Shown here: in pieces, positions 12,145 to 54,570 of the stretch
Layout: every line of letters starts with the position of its first letter
Position numbering within the stretch: position 1 is the stretch's first letter
Origin: Bacteriovorax sp. MedPE-SWde
GTDB lineage: Bacteria; Bdellovibrionota; Bacteriovoracia; Bacteriovoracales; Bacteriovoracaceae
Direction: 5' to 3'
DNA length: 64,000 nucleotides
NCBI GenBank assembly: GCA_001874305.1
Contig: MPCU01000006.1
Span: 124,001-188,000, forward strand
Program-made: the position numbers and the translations under genes
The notes under the pieces: generated by a model
Seen by the model: the letters and a program-made list of their open reading frames with translations, nothing else
What the model was told of the DNA's origin: nothing
The model's database searches: none

Positions 12145-13112
12145 TATTTATTTCTCCATACACGAGCTGAATCCTGAGCTCTTGGAAGTCCTAGCTCTTC
12201 TAGGATGAAGTTATTCTTAAACCACTTTGGAGACACCTTTACGTGAAGGTTAAGGTGTACTTTATTATCAGTCATAGCAGAAATTTTCTTTCTTGCTCTT
12301 GTTCCAATTTCCTTGATGATTGAACCTTTTGATCCAACAACAATTGCTCTTTGTGATGGTCTGTTAACAAGGATAGAAGCTGAGATATGAGAAGCTCCAT
12401 CTTCACCTGGCTTAGGCTTGATGTCTTTATACTCATCAATTACAACTGCTAATTCATATGGAAGTTCATCTTTTAAAAGAGCAAAGGCCTGCTCTCTGAT
12501 ATATTCAGTAGCGAAAAATCTCTCTGGCTTATTTGAGATAGCTCCTCTGTCATAGAAATGTGGACCAGGAATTGCTTCATCACAAATATCACCTGTTAGA
12601 AGGTGAACATTATATCCAGACTTTGAAGAAGTTAAGAAATGCTTCTCAAGATTTGGCATTATAAGTTTTGCTTTTTCCATTACCATAGATAGTGGTAGCT
12701 CAGATGCCGCTTCAACACGGTCAGACTTAGTAAAAACAACCCAAGTTCTTCCAAGTTCTTTATCAATATTTTCTTTAAAGTCTACAAACTGTTGTAGAAC
12801 ATCTTTTGTAAGGTCAATAAGTAGAAGGTTAAGGTCTGCACCATCAACACCTTCTCTTGCTTGTTGATTGATCCTCTTATTTAATTCCTGACTTGATTTA
12901 TGTAGACCAGGAGTATCAACTAGAACGATTTCTGTACGGTCAATAGTAAGAACTGCATGAAAACGGTTTCTTGTTGTTTGTGGCTTGTTAGTCACAATAC
13001 TAAGGTCCATTCCAAGAAGGTAGTTAACAAGGGAGCTCTTCCCAACATTTGGTGCACCAAGAACTGCAACCATTATCGATTTATTATCCGGGTGTTGATC
13101 TTCTAAAAGCAT
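12144..13112 (-). CDS. era: GTPase Era
   Basis: 322 residues. An essential GTPase that binds 16S rRNA and helps 30S subunit maturation. Motifs seen are GAPNVGKS (19-26), the switch region [13 protein letters not shown] (66-69) and TKSD in place of NKxD (about 127). A C-terminal KH domain follows, with its GxxG-type loop in [14 protein letters not shown]. The AAGGAG binding site is ideal. It lies between rnc and der with 11 bases to rnc and a one-base overlap with der, so it is co-transcribed and coupled. Confidence 0.96.
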
Positions 13113-41159: not shown

Positions 41160-41211
41160 TTACATAACTATCTACATTTCTGTGACACTAATACCTTAAA
41201 AATTGTATATT
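41160..41211 (+). promoter_or_regulatory. Candidate hem-box and -10 upstream of hemA
   Basis: ACA-ending pentamers TTACA (41160-41164), CTACA (41172-41176) and TGACA (41183-41187) lie in direct orientation, the last two with the 11-base repeat distance typical of OmpR-type regulator sites. The 19-base string ATCTACATTTC-TG-TGACAC (41170-41188) recurs upstream of hemCD with only two changes. A TATATT -10-like hexamer (41206-41211) follows 18 bases downstream, which fits activator binding at or near -35. Confidence 0.55.
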
Positions 41212-41255
41212 CTTGTTCATATTCAAACTTTTAACGCGTCACAACGGAATAATTA

Positions 41256-42176
41256 ATGCTTCATGCGATTAAATTATTACATATCCAAGGCAGTACAGCA
41301 GAACTAGATAAAGCACTTCTTGAAGAGAAGGGTATTTTCTTACTGAAGACTTGTCAGCGTGCGCTAATTGTTAAAACTTCCCCTATTATCGAGACTCATC
41401 AGGCACTTGGTGAATATCATGAGGGTAAAGAGGCCTACAAGTTTCTACTTGAAACAATATGTGGGCTTAAGAGTAAGCTTCAAGGTGAAAATGAAATCGT
41501 TTCTCAATTTAAAGAGGCCTATCACAACTACCTTCAAACAGAAGTTAGAAGTAGTGTCATCCTTAGAGTTCTTGAGAAACTATTTAAAGACGCCAAAGAA
41601 ATAAGAAGAGATTATCTCGTTAAGATCGGACAGCAATCATATGCAGGAATTGCGAGAAGAATCGTTCAAACAAAGTATGACTCAGGTAGAGTCCTCATCC
41701 TAGGATCAGGTCAACTTGCAAAAGATGTCTTAAAGCTTCTTCAAAAAAGGTATGAGATATCGATTAGTGCGAGAAGCCCAGAGAAAGTTCAGCAAATTAT
41801 GCTAGAGCATCCTCACCTCGACATCACTTATGTTCCATGGGAAGACCAGGCCCAGTATCAAGACTTTTCGACAATCGTAAATACAATTGGTGCTCAGGTA
41901 ACCCTATTCAATCACGATTTCTTTTCTCCAAGATGCACTAAGAGAAATATCTTCATTGATCTTGGATCTCCATCGGTGATTCAAACTCCATATACAAAAG
42001 ATCATGGTGTTTTTAGACTTACTGATATCTTCTCCCATGGAGAAGCACTTGATAAAGAAAAGAAAGTAAAAATTGATAGTGCGTTCTCTGCAATCGATGG
42101 ACTCGTTGATAGACGTGCAACAACTCTTGGACACAATCACCCATTTAGCTGGGAAGAGCTTCAGTTCGCTTATTAG
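41256..42176 (+). CDS. hemA: Glutamyl-tRNA reductase, short form
   Basis: 306 residues. It makes glutamate-1-semialdehyde from glutamyl-tRNA, the first committed step of C5 heme synthesis. The catalytic Cys33 lies in LKTCQRALIV (usual form STCNRxE). The LQGENEIVSQFKEAY block (75-89) and NADPH-binding GSGQLAKDV (150-158) match the family. Usual length is about 420; the C-terminal spinal helix and dimerisation domain are missing or reduced to about 35 residues. HemL, the next enzyme, is in the hemCD operon 7 kb away. Upstream sequence carries the candidate hem-box. Confidence 0.85.
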   Translation: MLHAIKLLHIQGSTAELDKALLEEKGIFLLKTCQRALIVKTSPIIETHQALGEYHEGKEAYKFLLETICGLKSKLQGENEIVSQFKEAYHNYLQTEVRSSVILRVLEKLFKDAKEIRRDYLVKIGQQSYAGIARRIVQTKYDSGRVLILGSGQLAKDVLKLLQKRYEISISARSPEKVQQIMLEHPHLDITYVPWEDQAQYQDFSTIVNTIGAQVTLFNHDFFSPRCTKRNIFIDLGSPSVIQTPYTKDHGVFRLTDIFSHGEALDKEKKVKIDSAFSAIDGLVDRRATTLGHNHPFSWEELQFAY

Positions 42177-42345
42177 TTCATCATAATTATCACCATCGAG
42201 ACTGACGTCTTGAGCCTTCTTTATTTTTCTCCATCTCACTCTCACATACTTACCCCTAGTAAGAAGTAATCAAGAAATCTTGGTTAAGGCCCTAATGAAA
42301 TATTGTCGATAGCCGGAGGGTACAAACAAAGAACAAAGGGAAAGA

Positions 42346-42795
42346 ATGAAAGACTTAAAAGAAGTTATTTTAATGGATGGAGAACAAATTCTACATAAAA
42401 TAGAGGGTGATGCTTATAACGAGTACCCTAATCCGCTAATGAAGCTTGCAGGGAAGATTGATAAAGTAGTAAGCAAGATTTTTGGAAAGTCTAAAAGGGT
42501 CTACTTTGTACAGACTACACATCGAGTACTACTCGTAGAGAAGGGTATGATTTTTTGGAAGTTCCCAAGAGACATCGTTTCAACAGCACTCTCAAAAGAT
42601 GCGATAGACACTGTAGGTTATACGCAAGCACGGCGTTGGCTTCTATTTAAGTCTCTATATTTTAATTTAAGCCTAAGATCAGGACAGAATTACGAGATCC
42701 ACTATGAAGGTAAATTACCCGATTTGGCATTAGTTGCTAACGATATCAATAACAGTATTTTTGGAAATGAAAGTGAATTAAAGGCTGTTGCTTAA
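42346..42795 (+). CDS. Hypothetical protein, possible PH-like fold
   Basis: 149 residues, soluble, no signal peptide. The arrangement of short beta strands with a final helix (RVYFVQTTHRVLLVEKG, ARRWLLFKSLYFNLSLRSG) is reminiscent of bacterial PH-like domains, but I cannot confirm it. GGGAAAG precedes the ATG. A hairpin with an eight-T loop lies downstream. Confidence 0.65.
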   Translation: MKDLKEVILMDGEQILHKIEGDAYNEYPNPLMKLAGKIDKVVSKIFGKSKRVYFVQTTHRVLLVEKGMIFWKFPRDIVSTALSKDAIDTVGYTQARRWLLFKSLYFNLSLRSGQNYEIHYEGKLPDLALVANDINNSIFGNESELKAVA

Positions 42796-42808
42796 TCAAT
42801 ACTAATCC

Positions 42809-42836
42809 CCCTTCCTTTTTTTAACAAAGGGAAGGG
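42809..42836 (+). terminator. Hairpin after the 42346 gene (possible terminator)
   Basis: CCCTTCC (42809-42815) pairs with GGAAGGG (42830-42836). The T-run lies in the loop rather than after the stem, so termination is uncertain. Confidence 0.4.
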
Positions 42837-42850
42837 TACTAGGAATTACA

Positions 42851-43186
42851 ATGCATAATTTTACTCACTCTTATTGTCCGACTTGTAATAAGACAAATCA
42901 TATTACAAATGAGGGCTCAGTGAGTTCCTGCCAACAGTGCAAAGAAGTCATAAAGTATCCAGAATGTTTGAATAAATCTTCGTATGACCTGATCGTTGAT
43001 ATAAACACAAAGAAAACGATACCATGGTGGGGCTGGGTAATGATGATCTTTATGTTTTTCGGCTTTATAGTTGAGCTATGTGCCCCGTATGCCTACCCTG
43101 CTTTAAGAATATATTTATATACTGATAATGGTCGAGAAAAGATAAAAGGTGTTAAAGAAAAGCTTATTAAATCATACAAAGAGTGA
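42851..43186 (+). CDS. Small zinc-ribbon membrane protein
   Basis: 111 residues. Two CxxC pairs at Cys9/Cys12 (CPTC) and Cys27/Cys30 (CQQC) form a likely zinc ribbon. A transmembrane helix (about 60-80, WWGWVMMIFMFFGFIVELC) and a basic C-terminal tail follow. Function unknown. AGGAA lies before the ATG. Confidence 0.7.
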   Translation: MHNFTHSYCPTCNKTNHITNEGSVSSCQQCKEVIKYPECLNKSSYDLIVDINTKKTIPWWGWVMMIFMFFGFIVELCAPYAYPALRIYLYTDNGREKIKGVKEKLIKSYKE

Positions 43187-43290
43187 GTGCTATAGGCCCT
43201 TTCCATCTAAATTTTAACTAACTACGGATAACAGGCGGCGAAAAGCTCCCTTTCTTAATTTTTTCAAAGGTTTCCTTATTAAGTGAATAT

Positions 43291-43311
43291 ATATTGTCGA
43301 TAAAACAATAT
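43291..43311 (+). promoter_or_regulatory. Hairpin overlapping the 43310 start codon
   Basis: ATATTGT (43291-43297) pairs with ACAATAT (43305-43311), which covers the first bases of the ATG at 43310. No clear Shine-Dalgarno sequence precedes this gene. The arms are AT-rich, so chance is possible. Confidence 0.3.
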
Positions 43312-44842
43312 GATGAAACTAATCACTATTGCTAAACTTACAATTTCTACAATCTACACAACCCTAACTTTTGCAAACTTTGGCATGGGCTTTGGTGTTC
43401 CAACTTTCGAGATGTCTACTGAAGAAAAACGAGAGTTCTATAATAACCCAGAAAACTATCAATTCATCGCAATTCAGATTGCATCAGTATTTAAAGAGAA
43501 TCAACAGGGACTTGGTGGCTTCAACATGGGAGGGTCCTTTGGAGCTCAAGATTCAGAACACCCAAAAACTAAGAGTGAACAAGTTGACAAGATACTCTCT
43601 TCTTATGGATTAAATGATCCAGATCTTGCAGATATACAAGATAGTGTCTTATCAGAGTCTGCTCTAAAACTTGCGCAAAACGAAGTAGATATAGTAAGTG
43701 ATAAAGAAAACCCATATATGCTTAAGTATGAAAACTCTCGTTCGACAAAGGCGCTAGAAAACTTTGTAACAACAATAAATAGTAGTGGTAAGTACTCGAC
43801 TCCCTCTCAACTTGATAAGGCCTATAAACTTAAAGAAATATCAGAGAAGACAACTGGTAACTATAAGGCATATCTAAAAGAGCTAGAAAAGAACTTTGAA
43901 GGAAAAGATCTTTCTCGTATTGCCAAAGACTCCATGATGAGCTTTGAGTTTACTCCAAATACTCAGGTCGACTTTCTTAAGACAATGCTTAAAGGAGATA
44001 TAGACCAAAGCTACCTCAATGGTGTGATACATTTTCAATTGATGAATATGTATTCCGCTGCAGAATCAATGTACCCACCAACTCCAGGACTTTTGGAGCT
44101 TGCTACTGAATATTATGACTTTAACTCGAAGTCTAGTATGTTTGGGACCGACTACTTACTATGTGATTTATCAAAGCAAGTTTACAACAAGACAGAATAT
44201 CGAAAAATACAGGAAGGGGAACCTAAACCAGGCTTTCCAGGAGAAATGCCAGGTAACTTTGAAGATAGTTGTATAGAATGTGTCATGCAAAATGATATAA
44301 AGATCGACAAAGAAAAAAGAGATAAGATGACTAAAATGATGGATCAAAATCAAGTTAACAAGGTCGCAAAGCTTATCTCACTTGGCGCTGATGCCGGAGT
44401 TATATGTGAAGGCGGGCTCACTCCAGTAGACCATTTAGAAATAGCTGAAGCGGAGGGTTTCGTTTCTCTTGAAGACTTTAATTCAATGCTCTCAGTTACA
44501 TCTGCAGATAAACCTTGTCATGTTGATATTATCGATCAGAATATTCCAGAATTATGTGATACGGCCAATGTTCTTTCTTGGGTTAACAACGAAGTAAGGA
44601 GGCAAGGCAGTATGATAAAGAGGTCGAAACGTGAAAACTCTACAGTAAACTTTGTTAGTGCCTATTCTGATGACAACTGTAATTTTTCAATTCTTAATAA
44701 ACAAGTCAAACAAGGCTCAAGAATAAGCACAGAGAGTATCGAATTAAGAATCACTCCCATAAATGGTGATGGAGAAATATCAATCTCTGATAAAGACAAA
44801 GAAGAGTTCTTAGCGAAGCTCGAAAAATTAATTGTAAACTAA
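43310..44842 (+). CDS. Large secreted protein of unknown function
   Basis: 510 residues with a signal peptide (about 1-22) followed by a Gly/Phe-rich stretch (FGMGFGVPTF, GLGGFNMGGSFG). The long helical middle contains DLADIQDSVL and similar segments, and cysteines cluster in the C-terminal third (CIECVMQ, VICEGG, PCHVD, LCDTAN, NCNF). Two ATG codons (43310, 43313) are possible starts and neither has a clear binding site. No domain recognised. It overlaps the convergent glycosyltransferase gene by four bases. Confidence 0.7.
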   Translation: MMKLITIAKLTISTIYTTLTFANFGMGFGVPTFEMSTEEKREFYNNPENYQFIAIQIASVFKENQQGLGGFNMGGSFGAQDSEHPKTKSEQVDKILSSYGLNDPDLADIQDSVLSESALKLAQNEVDIVSDKENPYMLKYENSRSTKALENFVTTINSSGKYSTPSQLDKAYKLKEISEKTTGNYKAYLKELEKNFEGKDLSRIAKDSMMSFEFTPNTQVDFLKTMLKGDIDQSYLNGVIHFQLMNMYSAAESMYPPTPGLLELATEYYDFNSKSSMFGTDYLLCDLSKQVYNKTEYRKIQEGEPKPGFPGEMPGNFEDSCIECVMQNDIKIDKEKRDKMTKMMDQNQVNKVAKLISLGADAGVICEGGLTPVDHLEIAEAEGFVSLEDFNSMLSVTSADKPCHVDIIDQNIPELCDTANVLSWVNNEVRRQGSMIKRSKRENSTVNFVSAYSDDNCNFSILNKQVKQGSRISTESIELRITPINGDGEISISDKDKEEFLAKLEKLIVN

Positions 44843-45654
44843 CCCAGATAAGTATCTTTAGATCCAGAATCGTTCTTAAAACCTATCTGTGATTTTTCAT
44901 AGATAATTAGTTTTATAAGAGCTCGAAAAAGTGCAGTTTGGGCAGAGATAACGAAGCCAAGTTTTCCAAGACGCCATGACTTCTTAAAGATATGAAAGAA
45001 TGTCCAATAAAGAGTCGCAAGAACCTCTAGAGCACCTACTCTCTTACCTTTTTCAAATTTCTCATTCGCCACGAGAAGAGTGAAACGAGGAATCTTCTTT
45101 ACCCAGTCTTCCATAGAGTAAGTGTCATCATGAAGAACTCTAAAGTCCCTATTAATAAACCCTACTTTATCACTTTGCTCATGAACTGGCCTTCCATCAA
45201 TAAGATGTTCATGGTGGTTTCCGCCAGTATAGCGAACTCTGTCTTTAAGAAAGAGTCTCTCTTGCCACCAACTCTTTCCGTGACCACTAGATACTTCTTT
45301 TCCGAGATAGTATTCAGTGCGACAGATATTATAAAGAACCTTATCTGGATTATTATTAATGACACTATAGATTTCATCAGCTAGCTCTTTAGTCAGCTTC
45401 TCATCACTATCCATCATAAAACACCATTCGTGTGTTGCTTTATCAATTGAAATATTTCTTTGAGCAATAAATCCAGGCCATGGGCTATTGTGAACAACGA
45501 CATTTGAATAGGTTTTGGCAATTTCAATAGTACGATCAGTACTACCTCCATCAACTATAACCACCTCATCAAATGAACTTAAAGAATCCAAGCAGCGCTT
45601 CAGACTTGATTCAGAGTTTTGGGTAAGAATAAGAACTGATACCTTCTTCGACAT
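44839..45654 (-). CDS. Family 2 glycosyltransferase (WaaE/KdtX-like)
   Basis: 271 residues with a GT-A fold: VSVLILTQNSESSLKRCLDSL, VDGGSTDRTIEIA and the metal-binding DSDE motif (MMDSDEKLTKELADEI). The WWQERLFLKD and NHHEHLI segments resemble lipopolysaccharide core glucosyl/heptosyltransferases of the WaaE group. It probably adds a sugar to LPS or another surface polysaccharide. It is the last gene of a three-gene glycosyltransferase cluster. Confidence 0.88.
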   Translation of the reverse strand: MSKKVSVLILTQNSESSLKRCLDSLSSFDEVVIVDGGSTDRTIEIAKTYSNVVVHNSPWPGFIAQRNISIDKATHEWCFMMDSDEKLTKELADEIYSVINNNPDKVLYNICRTEYYLGKEVSSGHGKSWWQERLFLKDRVRYTGGNHHEHLIDGRPVHEQSDKVGFINRDFRVLHDDTYSMEDWVKKIPRFTLLVANEKFEKGKRVGALEVLATLYWTFFHIFKKSWRLGKLGFVISAQTALFRALIKLIIYEKSQIGFKNDSGSKDTYLG

Positions 45655-45662
45655 TTACTCTC

Positions 45663-46742
45663 TCACTTTGAGTTTAAAAACTCATACCACGTTGCAAAGT
45701 TCTTCTCTTTGTTAAAGAGATTTTCAACTCTAGCACGACCCTCTTTACCAAACTGTTGGCGAAGATTCTTATCTTTAATTAATACTTCAGTTTTAGCTGC
45801 AAAGTCCTCTATGGAAAATGGTTTAACTAAAAGACCAGTCTCATCATCAGAAACAACTTCTCTCATACTACTCGTATTAAATGCCACTACAGGTTTACCA
45901 CAGGCCATGGCCTCAATCATTGAGCGGGCTGTGCCTTCATAGCGAGAAGTGAAAACATAGATGTCAATTTCTTTTACAAAGTCCGAGACATTATCAATAT
46001 GTCCTATAAACTCCACATTATCCTGAAGTCCTAATTCATGAGCTAGCTTAATAAGAAAATCTCTCTCCTCACCTTCTCCAGCAATCTTCATGATAAACGG
46101 TATACCTTTATCTTTTAGGATCTTTAGTGATGGCATGAGAAGATCAAGACCTTTTTGATGTGACAGCCTTGAAGCATTTCCAAGAACTATCGTCTGTCCA
46201 TCTTTTGTAGTCTCTCCGACATATGTAAAGTCTTTGAGATCTATTCCGTTAGCAATATAGGGAACACACTGATTTTCTCTGAGAAGTTTTGGCGACTTCT
46301 CAAGAAACTCATCTCGTATTGATTCAGAGATGGGAACAAAGTAATCTAGTCCCACACGAAAATTAAAAAGATAAGATAGTGACTGCTTTGGCGCAATTGG
46401 CATTCCACATCTTAAGACGACTTTCTTTACACCGGCCTTCTTAATTGCATAAGCGGCCGCCCTTACATCTCTAAAAGAATTAAAGACTAGTACGTCAAGA
46501 TTATCTTTTTTAACCAACCTAGTTAATTTAATCAGAAACATAGGATTAAAGTAACTATGCTTTGAAATTGCGATATCTCTAATAACAAGACCAACTTCAA
46601 GAGATCGTTTTGCAAGCTCACCATCAACTGGTGAATACATTACAACTTCATCTCCAAGAGACTTGCAATAGTTGGCCATTTCAAAGTGCCACTTCTCACC
46701 GCCACCCCAAATCGAATAACCGTTAAAAAATCCTATTCTCAT
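45663..46742 (-). CDS. Family 4 glycosyltransferase (GT-B)
   Basis: 359 residues. The N-terminal GT-B domain opens GFFNGYSIWGGGEKWHFEMANY. The C-terminal domain has the GT4 signature GNASRLSHQKGLDLLMPSLKIL and the donor-binding motif FTSRYEGTARSMIEAMACGKPVVAF (EX7E). It uses a nucleotide-activated sugar to build surface glycan, probably LPS. It overlaps the upstream gene by one base (46742), so translation is coupled. Confidence 0.9.
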   Translation of the reverse strand: MRIGFFNGYSIWGGGEKWHFEMANYCKSLGDEVVMYSPVDGELAKRSLEVGLVIRDIAISKHSYFNPMFLIKLTRLVKKDNLDVLVFNSFRDVRAAAYAIKKAGVKKVVLRCGMPIAPKQSLSYLFNFRVGLDYFVPISESIRDEFLEKSPKLLRENQCVPYIANGIDLKDFTYVGETTKDGQTIVLGNASRLSHQKGLDLLMPSLKILKDKGIPFIMKIAGEGEERDFLIKLAHELGLQDNVEFIGHIDNVSDFVKEIDIYVFTSRYEGTARSMIEAMACGKPVVAFNTSSMREVVSDDETGLLVKPFSIEDFAAKTEVLIKDKNLRQQFGKEGRARVENLFNKEKNFATWYEFLNSK

Positions 46743-47626
46743 TATTTTACCAACTTATAATTTTTAAATTCACCTATACGATAACCCGTTAAACTTTCAA
46801 TATAATCACTTATGGCCATTCGTATATGCTTTATCTTAAAGTCTGGATCCAATGTATCAAGACTTAAGTCATTTCTATTTTCATTAATCCACTTCTCCAT
46901 AAGAAGCGGATGGGTGTCCATAAATTGTTTGAGTCCAAAAACTTTCTTATATGACCACTCATCACTCGATTCAAAATCTTTACCATGGTAGAGCTTATCA
47001 AATGACTTAATTTTCTTTGCCATGACCTGCTCACTTCTCGCCCAACCGTAGTGAAAAATTCTGGCATCAATTAACTTCGCGTTTGGCTTTCGACCATCTG
47101 CAAATCGAAACCCTTGTGCATCGAGATGACTTTTAAGGTTTACGCCATTCTTTATTGTCCTAACTTCACGTCTATAGATTGTTCTTGTGTATTTATAGAT
47201 ATCTACATTTCCAAAGAAGTGAAGATAGTTATAAACAAGGCCTTCAAGCTCATCTCTATCAATAAGTTCTTTTATACCATTTTCAATTGCAGGGAGATCG
47301 TCTTCATGGAGAACTTCATCACCTTGAATATACTGGCAGGCCTTCCCCTGGCATTTATCTAGAGCAATATTAGTTTGCTGAGATAGAATTAACCCGCTCT
47401 TTTGAATATTTGGATCCCACCAAGATTTAACAAATTTATACTTACTACCTGTTAAGTTATCTCTGAGATACTCATGAGTACCATCGTCTTCAGTGCATTC
47501 CGGATTGTTAAAACCGACATTGATCACGACCTCGTCACATAGTGGTTCTATAGAGAGCACACTCTCAAGAATTGGATAGCCTAAAGTCAGGCCATTTTTG
47601 ATAAATGTAAAACCAGATGTTTGCAA
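46742..47626 (-). CDS. Glycosyltransferase-like protein (GT-A)
   Basis: 294 residues. GT-A-like features are the early GFTFIKNGLTLGYPILESVLSI, CDEVVINVGFN, and the acidic QGDEVLHEDDLP site in place of DXD. It is related to family 2 glycosyltransferases. The start is TTG at 47626 with AGGAG six bases upstream. It is first in the three-gene cluster, which lies on the minus strand between hemA and hemCD. Confidence 0.75.
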   Translation of the reverse strand: MQTSGFTFIKNGLTLGYPILESVLSIEPLCDEVVINVGFNNPECTEDDGTHEYLRDNLTGSKYKFVKSWWDPNIQKSGLILSQQTNIALDKCQGKACQYIQGDEVLHEDDLPAIENGIKELIDRDELEGLVYNYLHFFGNVDIYKYTRTIYRREVRTIKNGVNLKSHLDAQGFRFADGRKPNAKLIDARIFHYGWARSEQVMAKKIKSFDKLYHGKDFESSDEWSYKKVFGLKQFMDTHPLLMEKWINENRNDLSLDTLDPDFKIKHIRMAISDYIESLTGYRIGEFKNYKLVK

Positions 47627-47744
47627 AAAGTACTCCTTTAATTAAGCTATTAAAATAACATAACTCAACTGTATTTGACAGAATCTAGAATCAGCATTTT
47701 TCGACAAGACGCGCAAGAAGTAACTTCTCTCAATTTCTTTACGA

Positions 47745-47809
47745 ATCTACATTTCCATGACACAAATTCAGGGACATTTCTGTATGTTTACTAGGATTTT
47801 CAATATAAA
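47745..47809 (+). promoter_or_regulatory. Candidate hem-boxes and -10 upstream of hemCD
   Basis: ATCTACATTTC-CA-TGACAC (47745-47763) matches the hemA element at 17 of 19 positions and contains CTACA-N6-TGACA. A second pair, GGACA-N6-TATGT (47772-47787), follows with the same 11-base repeat distance. A TATAAA -10-like hexamer is at 47804-47809, 16 bases after the second pair. Confidence 0.6.
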
Positions 47810-47844
47810 TTACAAATACTTGTGCAACTAGTTAGGAGTTGGCC

Positions 47845-49392
47845 TTGACAAATATCGTACCTGTCAAAAATAAATATATCATTGGAACACGTGGATCACT
47901 TCTTGCCCTCACTCAATGTGGACAAATAAAGGCCGAGCTAGAAAGAGTAACTGGTGACGAATTTGAACTAAAAGTAATTACAACTCAAGGTGATCAAATT
48001 GTTGATAAACCTCTTTGGCAACTTGAAGGAAAGGACTTTTTTACAAAAGAACTTGATGCTGAACTCTTAGAAGAAAAAATCGACCTTGTAGTCCACTCAT
48101 ATAAAGACCTTGGCAGTGACAGACCAGAAGGAATAAAGCTCGCAGCTATTACAAAGAGAAATTACGCTCAAGACATCCTTCTTATAAAGAAGGAGACTGT
48201 AGCGAAGCTTGGTGAAATGACTGAGCTAATCGTTGGTACAAGCTCTCCAAGGCGTATAGTAAACACTGAAGCACAGCTATCAAAATTCATCCCTAACGGA
48301 AGTAATATTGAAGTTAAAACAAAGATGCTCAGAGGGAATGTTAATACAAGAATTGGAAAGCTTAAAGATGACCAATACGACGCAATTATTCTTGCTATGC
48401 CAGGAATTGAAAGACTTGCAATCACTCAAAAGTCACGAATTGAGCTAGAGGCACTTCTTGAAGGTATGACATTTATGATTATGCCTCAAAGTGAGTTCCC
48501 ATCGGCGGCAAGCCAGGGAGCTCTAGCAATAGAATGTCTAGAATCAAGAAAGGATAATGGAGAGCTCTTAGAAAAACTTCAAAGAGTTCAAGATAAGAAT
48601 ACTGTTAGTGAGATCTCTAGAGAGAGGCACTCATTTGCAAGCTATGGTGGAGGCTGTCACCTTGCGGTTGGAATCAATGTAATGAAGACTGGTGATTACT
48701 ATCTTCATGTTCACAGAGGTTCTGTTGACGGTAAAGTTATAGATGAAAAACAACTAGAGGGAAGCTTCCCTAACCCATCAGCAAAAACAAAAGCATTCAT
48801 TGGATTACCTGCAGAAAAACTTGAAGGACAACCATATACTCCGTGCTGGCTACTTACTAAAGAAGAATTAGAGATACAGTCACTTCCAGCAGGCGACCTT
48901 CTTGTGGCCTCTCGTTATGGAATGCTCAATGCTAAAAAAGCAAATGGAGCGGTTTTTACTTCAGGGATAAAGACTTGGCAGGCACTTTCATCTGAAGGTG
49001 TTTGGGTTCATGCTTCATGTGATTCACTTGGTGAGCAGTATCTAGAAAATATTAGAAAGTCAGTAACTTTAGATATTATGCTGGGAGATAATAGACCCCT
49101 ATCTATTCTCACTCATGAAGATAGCCACTCGGCATATGGAGTTGTAATTCCATCATATTCTAAAGATACTCTTGGTCTTACAAATGACCAAAAAGAAGCG
49201 CTACTAGCATGTGATGTCTTCTACTGGACAAGCTTTACTCAATACCAATCGTATGTAGAGCAGTACCCAGAAATAAAAGACGCATTTCACTGTTGTGGAC
49301 TAGGGAAAACATTAGAGAGTTTCAAAGCGGCCAATTTATCAGCGCGACCATTCTCTTCTATAACAGAATTTAAAACTTGGTTTAATAAATAA
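47845..49392 (+). CDS. hemC: Fused porphobilinogen deaminase / uroporphyrinogen-III synthase-like protein
   Basis: 515 residues beginning at TTG 47845 (AGGAG six bases upstream); a TTG at 47839 abuts the binding site and is less likely. Residues about 1-320 are porphobilinogen deaminase, which joins four porphobilinogens into hydroxymethylbilane. Evidence is IGTRGSLLALTQ, the catalytic Asp88 (HSYKD), GTSSPRR (131-137), LRGNVNTR, and the dipyrromethane-cofactor Cys271 (GGGCHLAVG). Residues about 335-515 resemble a divergent HemD that closes the tetrapyrrole ring; the end FHCCGLGKTLESFKAANLSARP mimics the HemD C-terminal strand-helix. The HemD half is weak by eye and needs a profile check. First gene of the hemCD-hemL-kinase-regulator-hemE-hemN operon. 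Confidence 0.85.
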   Translation: MTNIVPVKNKYIIGTRGSLLALTQCGQIKAELERVTGDEFELKVITTQGDQIVDKPLWQLEGKDFFTKELDAELLEEKIDLVVHSYKDLGSDRPEGIKLAAITKRNYAQDILLIKKETVAKLGEMTELIVGTSSPRRIVNTEAQLSKFIPNGSNIEVKTKMLRGNVNTRIGKLKDDQYDAIILAMPGIERLAITQKSRIELEALLEGMTFMIMPQSEFPSAASQGALAIECLESRKDNGELLEKLQRVQDKNTVSEISRERHSFASYGGGCHLAVGINVMKTGDYYLHVHRGSVDGKVIDEKQLEGSFPNPSAKTKAFIGLPAEKLEGQPYTPCWLLTKEELEIQSLPAGDLLVASRYGMLNAKKANGAVFTSGIKTWQALSSEGVWVHASCDSLGEQYLENIRKSVTLDIMLGDNRPLSILTHEDSHSAYGVVIPSYSKDTLGLTNDQKEALLACDVFYWTSFTQYQSYVEQYPEIKDAFHCCGLGKTLESFKAANLSARPFSSITEFKTWFNK

Positions 49393-49411
49393 GAAATAAA
49401 AGGATATTAAT

Positions 49412-50680
49412 ATGGGTAAGCAAGAACAATTATTTGAAAGAAGTAAAGAACTCGTTCCTGGTGGAGTTCACTCTCCAGTAAGAAGTTTTAAAGGACTTAG
49501 CTCAACGCCACGTTTTGTAAAATCTGCAAAAGGTGCTTACATTACAGATGTTGATGGAAAAGACTATATTGATTTCTGTATGAGTTTTGGTCCATTGATT
49601 CTTGGACATAGAAATGAAGTTGTTGAAAACAAACTTAAAGAAGCTCTTGAGAGAGGTTGGAGTTATGGAGCTTGTGAGCCCTATTCACTAGATCTTGCAG
49701 AACTTCTTCTTCAAAGACTTCCATTTGTGGATCAAATCCGCTTTGTAAACTCTGGAACTGAAGCTGTTATGACGGCCTTAAGACTTGCCAGAGGAGCAAC
49801 GGGAAAAAATAAAATTATAAAGTTTAATGGTTGCTACCATGGACATGTAGATTCAATGCTTATTAAGGCAGGATCTGGTCTAGCAGGTACAGCTGAAGCA
49901 TCTTCTGGTGGAGTTCCATCTGGAGTTGCTGACGATACTCTTATTTTAGAGCTTGGTGATCTTGAAGGCGTGAAAGCTTGCTTCAATGATCACAAAGACC
50001 AAATTGCAGCTATTATTGTAGAACCTCTACCGGCCAACAATGGTCTTCTTGTTCAAGATCAGGAATTTTTAAACGGTCTAAGAGAAATTACAAAAGCTAA
50101 TGACTCTCTCCTTATTTTTGATGAAGTAATTTCAGGGTTCAGAGTTGCTTTTGGTGGTATGGCTGAAAAAACAGGTATTACTCCTGACATCGTGACATAT
50201 GGAAAAATCATTGGTGGTGGACTTCCAGTTGGAGCAATTGCTGCGAAGAAGAACATCATGAATAACTTAGCGCCAGTTGGATCTGTTTATCAAGCAGGAA
50301 CACTAAGTGCTAACCCTCTGGCAATGGTTGGAGGACTTGAAACACTAAGTCTAATGACAGAAGAGAAATATGCACAACTTGATTCAAATACAGAGAAAGT
50401 TGCCGCAGTATTTAAAAAATGGCTTGCTGAATACGCAGATGGGAAGTTCTCAAACTATAATGTTATTCAAGAATCATCACTTTTTTGGATTGTTCCAGGT
50501 GATAAGATAAAATGTGTAGGAAATATTCCAGGTAATATCGGAGAAGACTTTGTTCCACTATTTGAGCTTCTTCTTGAAAAAGGAATATACTTATCTCCAA
50601 ATGCATATGAAGTTGGGTTTGGATCTCTTGCTCATAATGATGAAGTTATCAAAGATCTAGAGAACAGACTTTGGAAATAA
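49412..50680 (+). CDS. hemL: Glutamate-1-semialdehyde 2,1-aminomutase
   Basis: 422 residues, full family length. It converts glutamate-1-semialdehyde to 5-aminolevulinate with pyridoxamine/pyridoxal phosphate. The PLP lysine is Lys265 in TYGKIIGGGLPVGA, and NSGTEAVMTALRLARG and CYHGHVDSML are typical. A good AAAGGA binding site precedes the ATG. It supplies the substrate for downstream steps; no hemB is visible in the window. Confidence 0.97.
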   Translation: MGKQEQLFERSKELVPGGVHSPVRSFKGLSSTPRFVKSAKGAYITDVDGKDYIDFCMSFGPLILGHRNEVVENKLKEALERGWSYGACEPYSLDLAELLLQRLPFVDQIRFVNSGTEAVMTALRLARGATGKNKIIKFNGCYHGHVDSMLIKAGSGLAGTAEASSGGVPSGVADDTLILELGDLEGVKACFNDHKDQIAAIIVEPLPANNGLLVQDQEFLNGLREITKANDSLLIFDEVISGFRVAFGGMAEKTGITPDIVTYGKIIGGGLPVGAIAAKKNIMNNLAPVGSVYQAGTLSANPLAMVGGLETLSLMTEEKYAQLDSNTEKVAAVFKKWLAEYADGKFSNYNVIQESSLFWIVPGDKIKCVGNIPGNIGEDFVPLFELLLEKGIYLSPNAYEVGFGSLAHNDEVIKDLENRLWK

Positions 50681-51576
50681 AGAAATCTAGCTCTATTCTC
50701 TTCTTTCTTTCAGGACTAGTCAGTGTGCTAATCACACTGCTTGGTTCTTGGTGGCTTTATTTAATCTTTGGGTTAAGTAGTAGACTAGCTGAGCTTGAAG
50801 TTCAATCAGAAGGGCCAAATATTGTCAGACTTATTAAGTGGGAAGGAAGTGCATTTATTATACTTCTGTTCATCATAATTATCTCTCACACAATATTATT
50901 CATGAAGGACCAAAAAAAGAATAAAGCAATACATGCTTTCTTTGCTGGTCTCACTCATGAACTAAAGACTCCCCTAGCAAGCATTAGACTTCAAGCAGAA
51001 GTCATAAAAGATGAGTCAGACAGAATAGAAAATAAACGTTTAGACAAGTTAACAAATAGACTAATTGAAGATACCGCAAGACTTGAAACTCAGATGGACA
51101 AAATCCTACAGCTTTCAAGAATGGAAAAAGGTGGAAACCTAAATCTTGTCTCAGTTAATCTACATTCATTTATTCAAAGAGAAATTAAAGACCTTGCCAT
51201 TGGTATGGACACTACTATTTCGGGGATTGATCCTGAAACAGAAGTATTAATAGATGAGTTTGCGTTTGCTATCATTATTAAGAACTTTATTCAAAATACA
51301 CGCAACCACACTTCTTCTAAAACTATAAGTATAGAAGGAAAGCAAGGTCCTGACACAATTACAATTGCCTATAAAGATAATGGAGTATTTGACGGTAATA
51401 TTAAAAAATTAGGAAATCTCTTCTACAAGCATAACTCTTCTAAAGGATCAGGTATTGGACTATACCTTTCTAAGAGGCTTATAAAACGTATGAATGGACA
51501 ACTTAGAATTACTAAAAATACTGGGCTTGTCTTTGAAATAGAAATCCCTCTTTACCAAGGAGAGCGCCATGACTAA
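50671..51576 (+). CDS. Sensor histidine kinase of the heme operon
   Basis: 301 residues. Two transmembrane helices (about 9-31 and 59-78) enclose a short periplasmic segment (about 32-58) too small for a classical ligand domain. The dimerisation box is THELKTPLASIRLQ with phospho-acceptor His96. The ATPase half has the N-box (FIQNTRNHTS) and the G-box (GSGIGLYLSKRL). The start is TTG at 50671, overlapping the hemL stop by ten bases. It overlaps the response regulator by eight bases. Its place among heme genes suggests it senses heme, a precursor or membrane redox state, as proposed for Leptospira HemK. Confidence 0.9.
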   Translation: MEIKKSSSILFFLSGLVSVLITLLGSWWLYLIFGLSSRLAELEVQSEGPNIVRLIKWEGSAFIILLFIIIISHTILFMKDQKKNKAIHAFFAGLTHELKTPLASIRLQAEVIKDESDRIENKRLDKLTNRLIEDTARLETQMDKILQLSRMEKGGNLNLVSVNLHSFIQREIKDLAIGMDTTISGIDPETEVLIDEFAFAIIIKNFIQNTRNHTSSKTISIEGKQGPDTITIAYKDNGVFDGNIKKLGNLFYKHNSSKGSGIGLYLSKRLIKRMNGQLRITKNTGLVFEIEIPLYQGERHD

Positions 51577-52255
51577 GATTCTTATCGTTGAAGATGACAA
51601 CAACCTTGGTGATACACTCTTTGAGTACCTAGAAGGTTTCGGTCATCAGTGCCTCCTTGCTAAAACAGCAAAAGAAGCAAAGGAGCATTTTGCAAAACTT
51701 GCTCCAGATATTGTGCTCATGGATATTGGTCTACCTGATGGAAGTGGACTTGATCTTGCGAGACAGTTTAGAGACTTCAGAAAAGATTTCGCACTCCTCT
51801 TTCTTTCGGCACTAAATGACCCAGAAACTAAAGTTGAAGGGCTTGAAATTGGTGCTGAAGATTACATAACTAAGCCATTTGCTTTAAAAGAGCTTATGTT
51901 CAGGCTCGATAGGATCAGAACCTTTAAAGAAGATGTAAGTAAAGTTGAAGACGAACTTATATTTGGACAACTAAAAGTCTGGTTTAAGAGGTTTGAGGTT
52001 CAAGATGGTAGTGGCGTAGTGATCTCACTTTCACAAAAAGAATGTGCGATTTTAAAGTACATGTGGATGAATAAGAATGAAGCACTAACTCGAGATCAAA
52101 TAATTGATAAGGTTTGGGGAGAAGATAAATTCCCTTCGCATAGAACAGTAGATAATTACATAGTAAAACTTAGAAAGTGGGCCGAGACAGATATAGATGG
52201 GCCTCTTCAAATACAGAGTATTCGCGGAATTGGATATAAACTAACAATTAAATAA
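51569..52255 (+). CDS. OmpR-family response regulator of the heme operon
   Basis: 228 residues. Receiver domain with phospho-acceptor Asp52 (LMDIGLP) and Lys102 (YITKPFA). C-terminal winged-helix DNA-binding domain with SHRTVDNYIVKLRKW and IQSIRGIGYKL. GAGAGCGCC precedes its ATG inside the kinase gene. By analogy with Leptospira HemR it is the likely reader of the hem-box-like direct repeats upstream of hemA and hemCD. OmpR-type proteins bind direct repeats of about 10-11 bases, which fits those elements. Confidence 0.93.
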   Translation: MTKILIVEDDNNLGDTLFEYLEGFGHQCLLAKTAKEAKEHFAKLAPDIVLMDIGLPDGSGLDLARQFRDFRKDFALLFLSALNDPETKVEGLEIGAEDYITKPFALKELMFRLDRIRTFKEDVSKVEDELIFGQLKVWFKRFEVQDGSGVVISLSQKECAILKYMWMNKNEALTRDQIIDKVWGEDKFPSHRTVDNYIVKLRKWAETDIDGPLQIQSIRGIGYKLTIK

Positions 52256-52276: not shown

Positions 52277-53314
52277 ATGGGCTTATTTAACGACAGAACT
52301 CAAAAAGACGGAAAAACATTTGTTCCAGTATGGTTTATGAGACAAGCAGGTCGCTATCACGACCACTATCAAAACCTAAAGAAGAGTCATGATTTTATGA
52401 CTCTTTGTAAAGATCCAAAGCTTGCTTGTGAAGTAACAATGGGTCCAATTGACGACTTTAAATTTGATGCTGCAATTCTTTTTTCTGACCTACTCTTTCC
52501 ATTAGAGCATATCGGAATGGGTCTTGAGTATGCACCAGGTCCAAAACTTAGCAAAAAGCTAGGTTCAATTGATGATATCAAAAACCTTAAGCCTCTTGAT
52601 ACTGCAAAGAACTTCTACGACTTTCAAGGAAAGGCCTGTGGACTTTTAAAAACAGAGCTACCACAAGATAAAACACTTCTTGGTTTTGTTGGAGCTCCAT
52701 TTACTCTATATACATATGCTGTTGAAGGCTCACACGCAGGAGCTCTATATAGCTCAAAACTAGGTCTCTATGATGGAAGATGGGAAGCTTTCACTGAAAT
52801 GCTTATCCCTCACCTACTTGGGGAAATGAGAGTTCAAGCTCTTGGTGGTGCCGATGCAATGTGTATGTTTGACACTGCGGCCGGTGAACTATGTTTTGAC
52901 GATTACAAAAACATTGTTCTTCCAGTACTAAAAAGAGTTACTGCTGAGTTTAAAAAAGAATTTCCAGATAAGAAAGTTATCTACTATTCGAAAATGACTC
53001 ATATGAATTACCTAGAAGAAATTCAAGATGATAATATTGACGTACTTGGTGTTGATTGGCGCCATGACCTTGGCGATGTAATTAATAAGCTTGGTAAAGA
53101 TTATTATATCCAAGGAAATATCGAGCCAGCATACCTTGGTCTTCCATGGGAAACTCTTGAGAAAAAATGGATGAACCTTTATAAAGACCTTCAAGATAAG
53201 AATGTTGATATGTCGAGATGGATCTGTGGACTAGGTCACGGTTGCCTACAGTGGATACCACAGGACAATGTAAAAAAGTCTGTTGAACTAATCCAAAAGA
53301 ACTTTTCTTACTAA
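52277..53314 (+). CDS. hemE: Uroporphyrinogen decarboxylase
   Basis: 345 residues. Removes the four acetate carboxyl groups of uroporphyrinogen III to give coproporphyrinogen III. Signatures are PVWFMRQAGRY (near residue 17-27) and LGFVGAPFTLYTYAVEGS. The usual AILFSDLLFPLE and the C-terminal GLGHGCLQWIPQDN are also present. AAAGGAAAA precedes the ATG. Cytoplasmic. Follows the response regulator with 21 bases. Confidence 0.97.
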   Translation: MGLFNDRTQKDGKTFVPVWFMRQAGRYHDHYQNLKKSHDFMTLCKDPKLACEVTMGPIDDFKFDAAILFSDLLFPLEHIGMGLEYAPGPKLSKKLGSIDDIKNLKPLDTAKNFYDFQGKACGLLKTELPQDKTLLGFVGAPFTLYTYAVEGSHAGALYSSKLGLYDGRWEAFTEMLIPHLLGEMRVQALGGADAMCMFDTAAGELCFDDYKNIVLPVLKRVTAEFKKEFPDKKVIYYSKMTHMNYLEEIQDDNIDVLGVDWRHDLGDVINKLGKDYYIQGNIEPAYLGLPWETLEKKWMNLYKDLQDKNVDMSRWICGLGHGCLQWIPQDNVKKSVELIQKNFSY

Positions 53315-53322
53315 TATTCTTA

Positions 53323-54570
53323 ATGAATAAAGAGAAGTTCTTTCAACTTATAGAGAAGTACCACTCTCCCGCGGGTAGATATAACTATTACCCGCGCATT
53401 TCTCAGTGGAAGAACAATTCCACTGTTGAGCAATGGTACTCTGAAGTTTCCGATTATTCCGGAGACCTAGACCTCTATATTCATATTCCTTTTTGTGAAA
53501 AATTCTGCCACTTTTGTGGTTGTAATGTGAAGATTGCTCAAAAAGATGATGCGAAGAATCTATATATAGAAAAATTAATTCATGAGTGGACTACGTATAA
53601 GAAAGATCCAAGAGATATTAAAAATATTTTCATTGGTGGAGGAACTCCAAACTCTCTTACGTTATCTCAATTTAAGAAGCTATTTGACGGCCTAGGATTA
53701 AAGAATGAGTCAAAAATTACGCTCTCAATCGAGGCCGACCCAAGAGAAATAAATAGAGAAAAGTTTCTCTTTCTTAAGTCTTATGGACTAAGCTCTGTAT
53801 CTCTTGGACTTCAAGACGTTGATAAGGACGTGCTTAATATAATTGGAAGACCTACTGACCTAGAGACTGTTAAAGACTCTATTAACTTTCTTTCAACTCT
53901 AGATCTGGAAAACCTTTCTCTTGATATGCTCTACGGCTTACCAAAGCAAGGAGAGCTTTCACTTACAAAATTTAAAGGCCTCTTAGAAGAAATAGAAATA
54001 ACAGCAATCTCACTTTATCCATTTGCCAATGTCCCTTGGTTTCAAGACTTCTACCCCTTATGGGAAGAATCAAAACCTAGTGTCCAAAGAAAGTATGAGC
54101 ATTACTTCGAGCTAAGTTCACTTTTAGAGAACAATGGATTTAAAACTATTAGTTTTGGTCACTTTTTTAAAAGTGATTCTAAGTTTTACAAGGCCTTTGT
54201 TGAGAATAAACTAACACGAAGTATTATGGGTCACTCAATTAACAAGTCACCCGTACTTCTAGGACTTGGTGTCTCTGCGATTAGTTCAGGCCCAAAATCC
54301 CTCAAGCAAAATGAAAAAATTTATGAGAACTACCTCTTTCAAGATATCGGTGCTCAGAGTATTCATACTAAGGGCCAAAGCGAAGAAAACCTTGAGGATT
54401 TCTTCATATCTCTAAGCTCCAAGACGATGTTTACTACTAATTTACAAATTGACGATGAGCTAATCTCAGACGGTATCATCACAAAAGAAAACGATAATTA
54501 TAGGGTCACAGATCTTGGAAGACACTTCGTTCAACACATCGCTAAATCTATAGAAAAAAACATTTTGTAA
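53323..54570 (+). CDS. hemN: Oxygen-independent coproporphyrinogen III oxidase
   Basis: 415 residues, a radical-SAM enzyme. The iron-sulfur motif HIPFCEKFCHFCGCN carries Cys58, Cys62, Cys65 and Cys67 (CX3CX2CXC), the pattern of true HemN rather than HemW. Other blocks are FIGGGTPNSLT, EADPREIN and the YGLPKQ motif. It decarboxylates coproporphyrinogen III to protoporphyrinogen IX without oxygen. It is about 40 residues shorter than E. coli HemN. It starts eight bases after hemE and ends the heme operon, so no protoporphyrinogen oxidase or ferrochelatase is present here. Confidence 0.93.
   Translation: MNKEKFFQLIEKYHSPAGRYNYYPRISQWKNNSTVEQWYSEVSDYSGDLDLYIHIPFCEKFCHFCGCNVKIAQKDDAKNLYIEKLIHEWTTYKKDPRDIKNIFIGGGTPNSLTLSQFKKLFDGLGLKNESKITLSIEADPREINREKFLFLKSYGLSSVSLGLQDVDKDVLNIIGRPTDLETVKDSINFLSTLDLENLSLDMLYGLPKQGELSLTKFKGLLEEIEITAISLYPFANVPWFQDFYPLWEESKPSVQRKYEHYFELSSLLENNGFKTISFGHFFKSDSKFYKAFVENKLTRSIMGHSINKSPVLLGLGVSAISSGPKSLKQNEKIYENYLFQDIGAQSIHTKGQSEENLEDFFISLSSKTMFTTNLQIDDELISDGIITKENDNYRVTDLGRHFVQHIAKSIEKNIL

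Follow-up and report, generated by a model that had tools for sequence, protein, structure and literature searches.

A HemKR-type two-component system and its predicted operator accompany heme biosynthesis genes in Bdellovibrionota, as in Leptospira

Bdellovibrionota are largely predatory bacteria that form a phylum distant from the spirochete Leptospira, in which alone, to our knowledge, the two-component system HemKR has been studied. In a 64,000-nt stretch of Bacteriovorax sp. MedPE-SWde (contig MPCU01000006.1; referred to as the window), the sensor kinase and response regulator encoded among the heme genes are orthologs of Leptospira HemK and HemR, and sequence comparison supports one heme-control circuit common to both phyla, with the same DNA element 5' of heme genes. 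We consider it very probable that the two circuits are orthologous and that phosphorylated HemR (P~HemR) acts on this element, the hem-box, most likely activating hemA and the hemCD operon in an autogenous manner. The circuit as proposed combines what the present data hold (orthology, gene order, operator conservation in a hold-out set, fixed promoter geometry, and joint absence of box and HemKR) with what we infer (HemR binding, activation as opposed to repression, autoregulation and the signal).

Table 1. Heme genes and promoter elements in the window (positions in the 64,000-nt stretch).
Feature	Position	Strand	Basis
hem-box 5' of hemA, CTACA-N6-TGACA, 11-bp direct repeat	41172..41187	+	sequence, family conservation
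-10-like hexamer TATTCT, exactly 20 bp 3' of hemA box	41208..41213	+	sequence; family-wide +20 position
hemA, short glutamyl-tRNA reductase, 306 aa, GlutR_N + Shikimate_DH domains	41256..42176	+	ORF + domain search
Block separating hemA from hemCD in the genus; ORFs on +, glycosyltransferase-like genes on -	42346..47626	.	ORFs, locus comparison
hem-box 5' of hemCD, CTACA-N6-TGACA	47747..47762	+	sequence, family conservation
Second pair GGACA-N6-TATGT at hemCD (GGACA 47772-47776, TATGT 47783-47787)	47772..47787	+	TATGT overlaps -10 hexamer TATGTT
hemCD -10 hexamer TATGTT, 20 bp after box	47783..47788	+	sequence; family-wide +20 position
hemCD fusion; HemC domain, C-terminal half aligns to annotated bifunctional Leptospira protein	47839..49392	+	domain search, alignment
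hemL	49412..50680	+	ORF + domain search
hemK-type sensor kinase, HisKA; 2 hydrophobic (transmembrane) stretches; W27-W28, E58, H96, T100	50671..51576	+	domains, alignment
hemR-type OmpR/PhoB response regulator, D52	51569..52255	+	domains, alignment, tree
hemE	52277..53314	+	ORF + domain search
hemN-like	53323..54570	+	ORF + domain search

The original prediction had placed a histidine kinase and an OmpR-type regulator between hemL and hemE, where both were indeed found (Table 1). Consecutive reading frames from hemL through kinase to regulator share a few bases, and gaps of ~21 bp and ~8 bp precede hemE and hemN, so that hemCD to hemN most likely form one operon. This operon is cut off from hemA by ~5 kb including genes on the opposite strand. 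The intervening block holds three glycosyltransferase-like genes and varies in length from ~3 to 11 kb between species of the genus. No dimerisation domain was detected in the window's HemA by domain search; L. interrogans likewise has a short HemA (289 aa, annotated as hypothetical; L213 7346-8212) without a detected dimerisation domain.

The two 19-mers from which the prediction started, 41170-41188 in front of hemA and 47745-47763 in front of hemCD, are identical at 17 of 19 positions, and the 11-base direct repeat CTACA-N6-TGACA claimed for them is real in both. Pattern searches of the whole 3.76-Mb genome returned exactly two sites for ATCTACATTTC-NN-TGACAC, one 5' of hemA and one 5' of hemCD. 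With up to three mismatches, this pattern gave 18 matches versus 10 in the reversed control, while a looser family consensus, YKACANNNNNRTGACAM, gave five matches (including the hemA and hemCD boxes) versus two in the control. The extra matches to the looser consensus were set aside as chance: two (L131, L132) fall within ORFs, and the third (L128), in a stretch where no complete ORF exceeds 81 aa, is probably part of a long gene. A one-mismatch box match at 12548 falls inside an Era-like GTPase gene. For the element itself, origin as a chance match was rejected in view of its uniqueness in the genome and the hold-out test described below.

Orthology of the pair with Leptospira HemK/HemR follows from reciprocal search, tree, gene order and shared kinase signatures. 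Queried with Leptospira HemR, this genome, which contains ~50 receiver-domain matches, returned the window regulator as its best match (1.6e-45; next paralog 1e-34). A tree was built from the hem-linked regulators, eight of this genome's regulator paralogs and further OmpR regulators. All 28 hem-linked sequences, that of Leptospira among them, fell into a single clade (98/91) apart from the genome's paralogs, bearing out the suspected kinship with Leptospira HemR. Within this clade, the Leptospira regulator clusters with five sequences, two from Oligoflexia and three others from the Bdellovibrionota side (100/99). One member of the window's own family (G012, locus L124) has a HemR of this Leptospira/Oligoflexia subtype, hinting at transfer of the locus between phyla or within one. 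The window regulator is not a member of the PhoB equivalog TIGR02154 (141 bits versus a cutoff of 296). The best PDB match of its receiver domain is 4q7e, which we take to be the receiver of L. biflexa HemR; the 59% identity of 4q7e to the L. interrogans HemR protein fits this identity. Four residues around the recognition helix (R192, D195, N196, R202) are invariant in 44/44 HemR orthologs; the phospho-acceptor D52 of the receiver domain is invariant too.

The similarity to a Leptospira heme locus, to which the prediction had pointed, proved accurate for gene order, the hemCD fusion and the operator. L. interrogans replicons in a plasmid collection carry hemA-hemCD-hemB-hemL-HK-RR-hemE-hemN (HK, kinase; RR, regulator), and TGACACTTCTTTGACA (TGACA-N6-TGACA) is located 5' of hemA, with TATAGT 19 bp after it. 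In a search of genome contigs with a receiver-domain alignment, matches to other OmpR regulators prevailed and Leptospira did not appear.

Regulator, kinase, hemA and hemCD co-occur in most of the 38 related genomes searched, and the order hemA-hemCD-hemL-HK-RR-hemE-hemN (with hemB in some) is found in five families of the phylum, the window's among them. The element recurs in these relatives: at all mapped loci that encode the HK/RR pair, (C/T/A)(T/G)ACA-N6-TGACA lies 5' of hemA, and many of the mapped Bdellovibrionota hemA promoters carry the exact Leptospira hem-box TGACA-N6-TGACA. Neither wide occurrence of the element across the genome nor its lack 5' of hemA in relatives, both of which would have spoken against the prediction, was thus seen. 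For a hold-out set, the kinase alignment alone served as query against genomes of the phylum (228/291 match at 1e-30; weaker matches may be paralogs), and 40 new loci from nine families were taken without looking at their promoters; one of them (L273) is the same organism as a named locus (L133). A box lies 5' of hemA in 40/40, 37 of them exact (TGACA or CTACA followed by TGACA) and three with one mismatch, counts that are not independent because the genomes are related. Across the 408 kb of these loci there are only 39 exact boxes, of which 37 would be the hemA boxes.

Conversely, nine genomes that have hemA and no detected HemK show no box 5' of hemA. Six belong to the window's family (G021, G023 with two hemA copies, G206, G266, G279 and G289), with HemK not above paralog level, and three with a long hemA to other families (G026, G034, G035); four of the nine are at most 85% complete, so that the kinase could be missing from the assembly. 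Another genome with a canonical long hemA (G025) was counted as positive because an exact box and a regulator share a contig. The comparison of 66 positive loci with nine negative genomes gave a Fisher's p of 8e-12, which overstates independence owing to kinship. Box and HemK/HemR are thus present or absent together. In eight further members of the window's family (G016, G019, G110, G137, G143, G169, G102, G264), the searches run gave no hemA match; these may be heme auxotrophs or possess a very different enzyme.

Alignment of 29 promoters on the box revealed a single fixed -10 position at +20, with a mean score of 2.69 compared to -1.5 or lower elsewhere. In the hold-out set, the best -10 lies at +20 in 32/40 loci (mean score 2.44 there, -1.9 or lower elsewhere), and four loci (L276, L277, L279, L280) have their best-scoring -10 at another position. 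The distance of 16-18 bases originally given between element and -10 must be corrected to 20 bp accordingly; an alternative -10-like hexamer at hemA, TATATT, occupies 41206-41211. The second pair noticed at hemCD, GGACA-N6-TATGT, exists as sequence and recurs in the closest relative (L101), yet its reading as a second operator was rejected: since TATGT belongs to the -10 hexamer and the pair is absent in L102 and L105, it is probably not an operator.

Based on these data, the membrane-bound kinase HemK, nearly devoid of an extracytoplasmic domain, would phosphorylate HemR, and a head-to-tail P~HemR dimer would bind the hem-box YKACA/TGACA-N6-TGACA. Ending 20 bp 5' of the -10 hexamer, the box would overlap the -35 region, from where P~HemR would most likely activate hemA and the operon hemCD-hemL-hemK-hemR-hemE-hemN; because this operon holds hemK-hemR, the predicted circuit is autogenous. 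An ample supply of heme precursors would make HemK act as a phosphatase, an activity for which T100 is conserved, and so shut the promoters down. The autogenous heme control originally proposed is thus supported, as a predicted HemKR regulon, by orthology, conserved box and joint absence; the signal may be something other than heme, as the trigger demonstrated in L. biflexa is not heme as such but 5-aminolevulinic acid or one of its products, acting on HemK phosphatase via T102 (PMC11426443).

Given that TGACA resembles TTGACA and is followed by a -10, the conserved element could instead be the strong sigma-70 -35 hexamer (nTGACA) of a housekeeping promoter without a dedicated regulator. Such a promoter would not account for an upstream half-site conserved at an exact 11-bp period, its spacer would be 17 bp and not the 20 bp seen between TGACA and -10, and the element is missing 5' of hemA where HemK/HemR were not found, which renders this explanation highly improbable. 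We regard it as equally far-fetched that the box is bound by one of the genome's other OmpR-type regulators, despite the many receiver domains encoded and the direct-repeat sites common to OmpR-family regulators: box and HemK/HemR come and go together, the recognition-helix residues are invariant across the HemR orthologs, and in Leptospira HemR has been shown to bind this very box (PMC11426443).

The direction of control leaves more room for doubt. HemR could repress these promoters by overlapping the -35 region that the box covers; in Leptospira, hmuO is repressed by P~HemR (PMC11426443). Against this, P~HemR is the proposed activator at Leptospira hemA (PMC11426443), hemAEL expression is down in hklep/rrlep mutants, whose growth needs hemin or ALA (PMC2266917), and a rigid distance between box and -10 is what one would expect of an activator touching RNA polymerase. 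Repression is therefore unlikely, and activation by P~HemR is the reading we retain. Its strength is uncertain even in L. biflexa, since hemA did not change significantly there upon hemKR deletion under standard conditions (PMC11426443).

Rearranged operons show where the box is placed when the cluster breaks. hemA and hemCD are adjacent in most mapped genomes, but in four of the window's genus (its own and L101, L102, L105) 3 to 11 kb lie between them. A separate hemCD box occurs in exactly these four genomes and in none of those with contiguous hemA-hemCD or a gap of 0.5-1 kb; splitting of the hem operon by other genes in this genus would thus have left a box on both pieces. In a Bdellovibrionales MAG, SI034_bin15 (L145, G296), hemA is divergent from hemK-hemR and has a box with the +20 hexamer TAAATT. 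hemH heads the remaining cluster, followed by hemCD-hemL-hemE-hemN, with hemB on the other strand. Among 20 loose boxes of this MAG, two have TANNNT at +20, those at hemA and hemH, and there is no box directly 5' of hemCD. The divergent hemA/hemKR genes adjoin multiheme cytochrome-like genes (L145 5100-15800). Boxes hence stand at the head of both operon pieces in two independent rearrangements, meaning that operators were kept or gained on both parts upon the break.

Outside the heme genes, genome-wide pattern scans left one START-domain gene as the only promoter-like box site besides hemA and hemCD. It encodes a secreted protein of lipid-binding type and has a box with TAACTT at +20 (C9:578379; L299, G000 C9:578379-578420). 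Orthologs in two genomes (G007, G005; L323, L324) have a one-mismatch box and a TA-hexamer at +20, and those in two others (G003, G015) have no box. The gene is a possible extra member of the regulon. Across 18 genomes, the composite promoter matched 28 times, 16 at hemA/hemCD and 12 elsewhere versus six in the control; the other 12 were dismissed, being mostly coding sequence or unrelated genes.

W27, W28, E58 and H96 are invariant in 42/42 aligned HemKs including Leptospira, and T100 is Thr in 41/42 and Asn in one. The first hydrophobic stretch contains W27-W28, and E58 sits where the second begins; the Trp pair is absent from three other HisKA-type kinases of this genome. As the loop between the two stretches ranges from nearly nothing to ~35 residues, the sensing part of HemK is probably the transmembrane helices themselves. 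Tentatively, and with somewhat less than even confidence, we propose that the Trp-Trp of TM1 and the Glu at the start of TM2 let HemK perceive heme or a porphyrin precursor within the membrane, with no need of an extracytoplasmic sensor domain, and that circuit and operator were kept across two phyla, possibly once the entire hem operon had passed between the Leptospira lineage and Bdellovibrionota. With the invariant WW/E pair, the question of what HemK senses becomes testable by mutation, and the Bdellovibrionota HemKR systems with the same operator offer dozens of natural variants in which to map DNA-binding code and sensor residues.

Our literature search, with the 2014 HemR paper (Morero et al.) outside its scope, returned no description of operator or regulon in Bdellovibrionota. 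What had been known, as far as the literature was searched, is the gene linkage: in 2008, one sentence (data not shown) linked such a pair to heme genes in Bdellovibrio bacteriovorus of the same phylum, likewise a two-component system by heme genes, without operator, promoter geometry, regulon or distribution (PMC2266917). Apparently new are the operator with its fixed geometry, the finding that it is present or absent jointly with HemKR, the boxes on both split parts and the transmembrane WW/E signature of HemK. In L. biflexa, P~HemR binds TGACA-N6-TGACA and is proposed to activate the hem genes and repress hmuO (PMC11426443), and hklep/rrlep mutants require hemin or ALA (PMC2266917). With this system (HemKR, also Hklep/Rrlep; LB014/LB015) the window shares the orthologous pair between hemL and hemE, the hemCD fusion, the short hemA, the hem-box 5' of hemA, and the conserved phospho-His, phospho-Asp and phosphatase Thr (T102 in L. 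biflexa, T100 here). It differs in phylum, in one half-site, the first being mostly CTACA in the window's family, in hemA being split from hemCD with a box on each, and in hemB lying outside the cluster. The Leptospira regulon also includes hmuO and exbB/exbD; here, neither hmuO nor exbB was seen under box control in the genome-wide scans, which used the DNA pattern only. With activation by the PhoB/OmpR family in general, the proposed circuit has in common the 11-bp direct repeat, a box over the -35 region, and a regulator of receiver and Trans_reg_C domains, whereas the recognition sequence, here TGACA, and the regulon are different.
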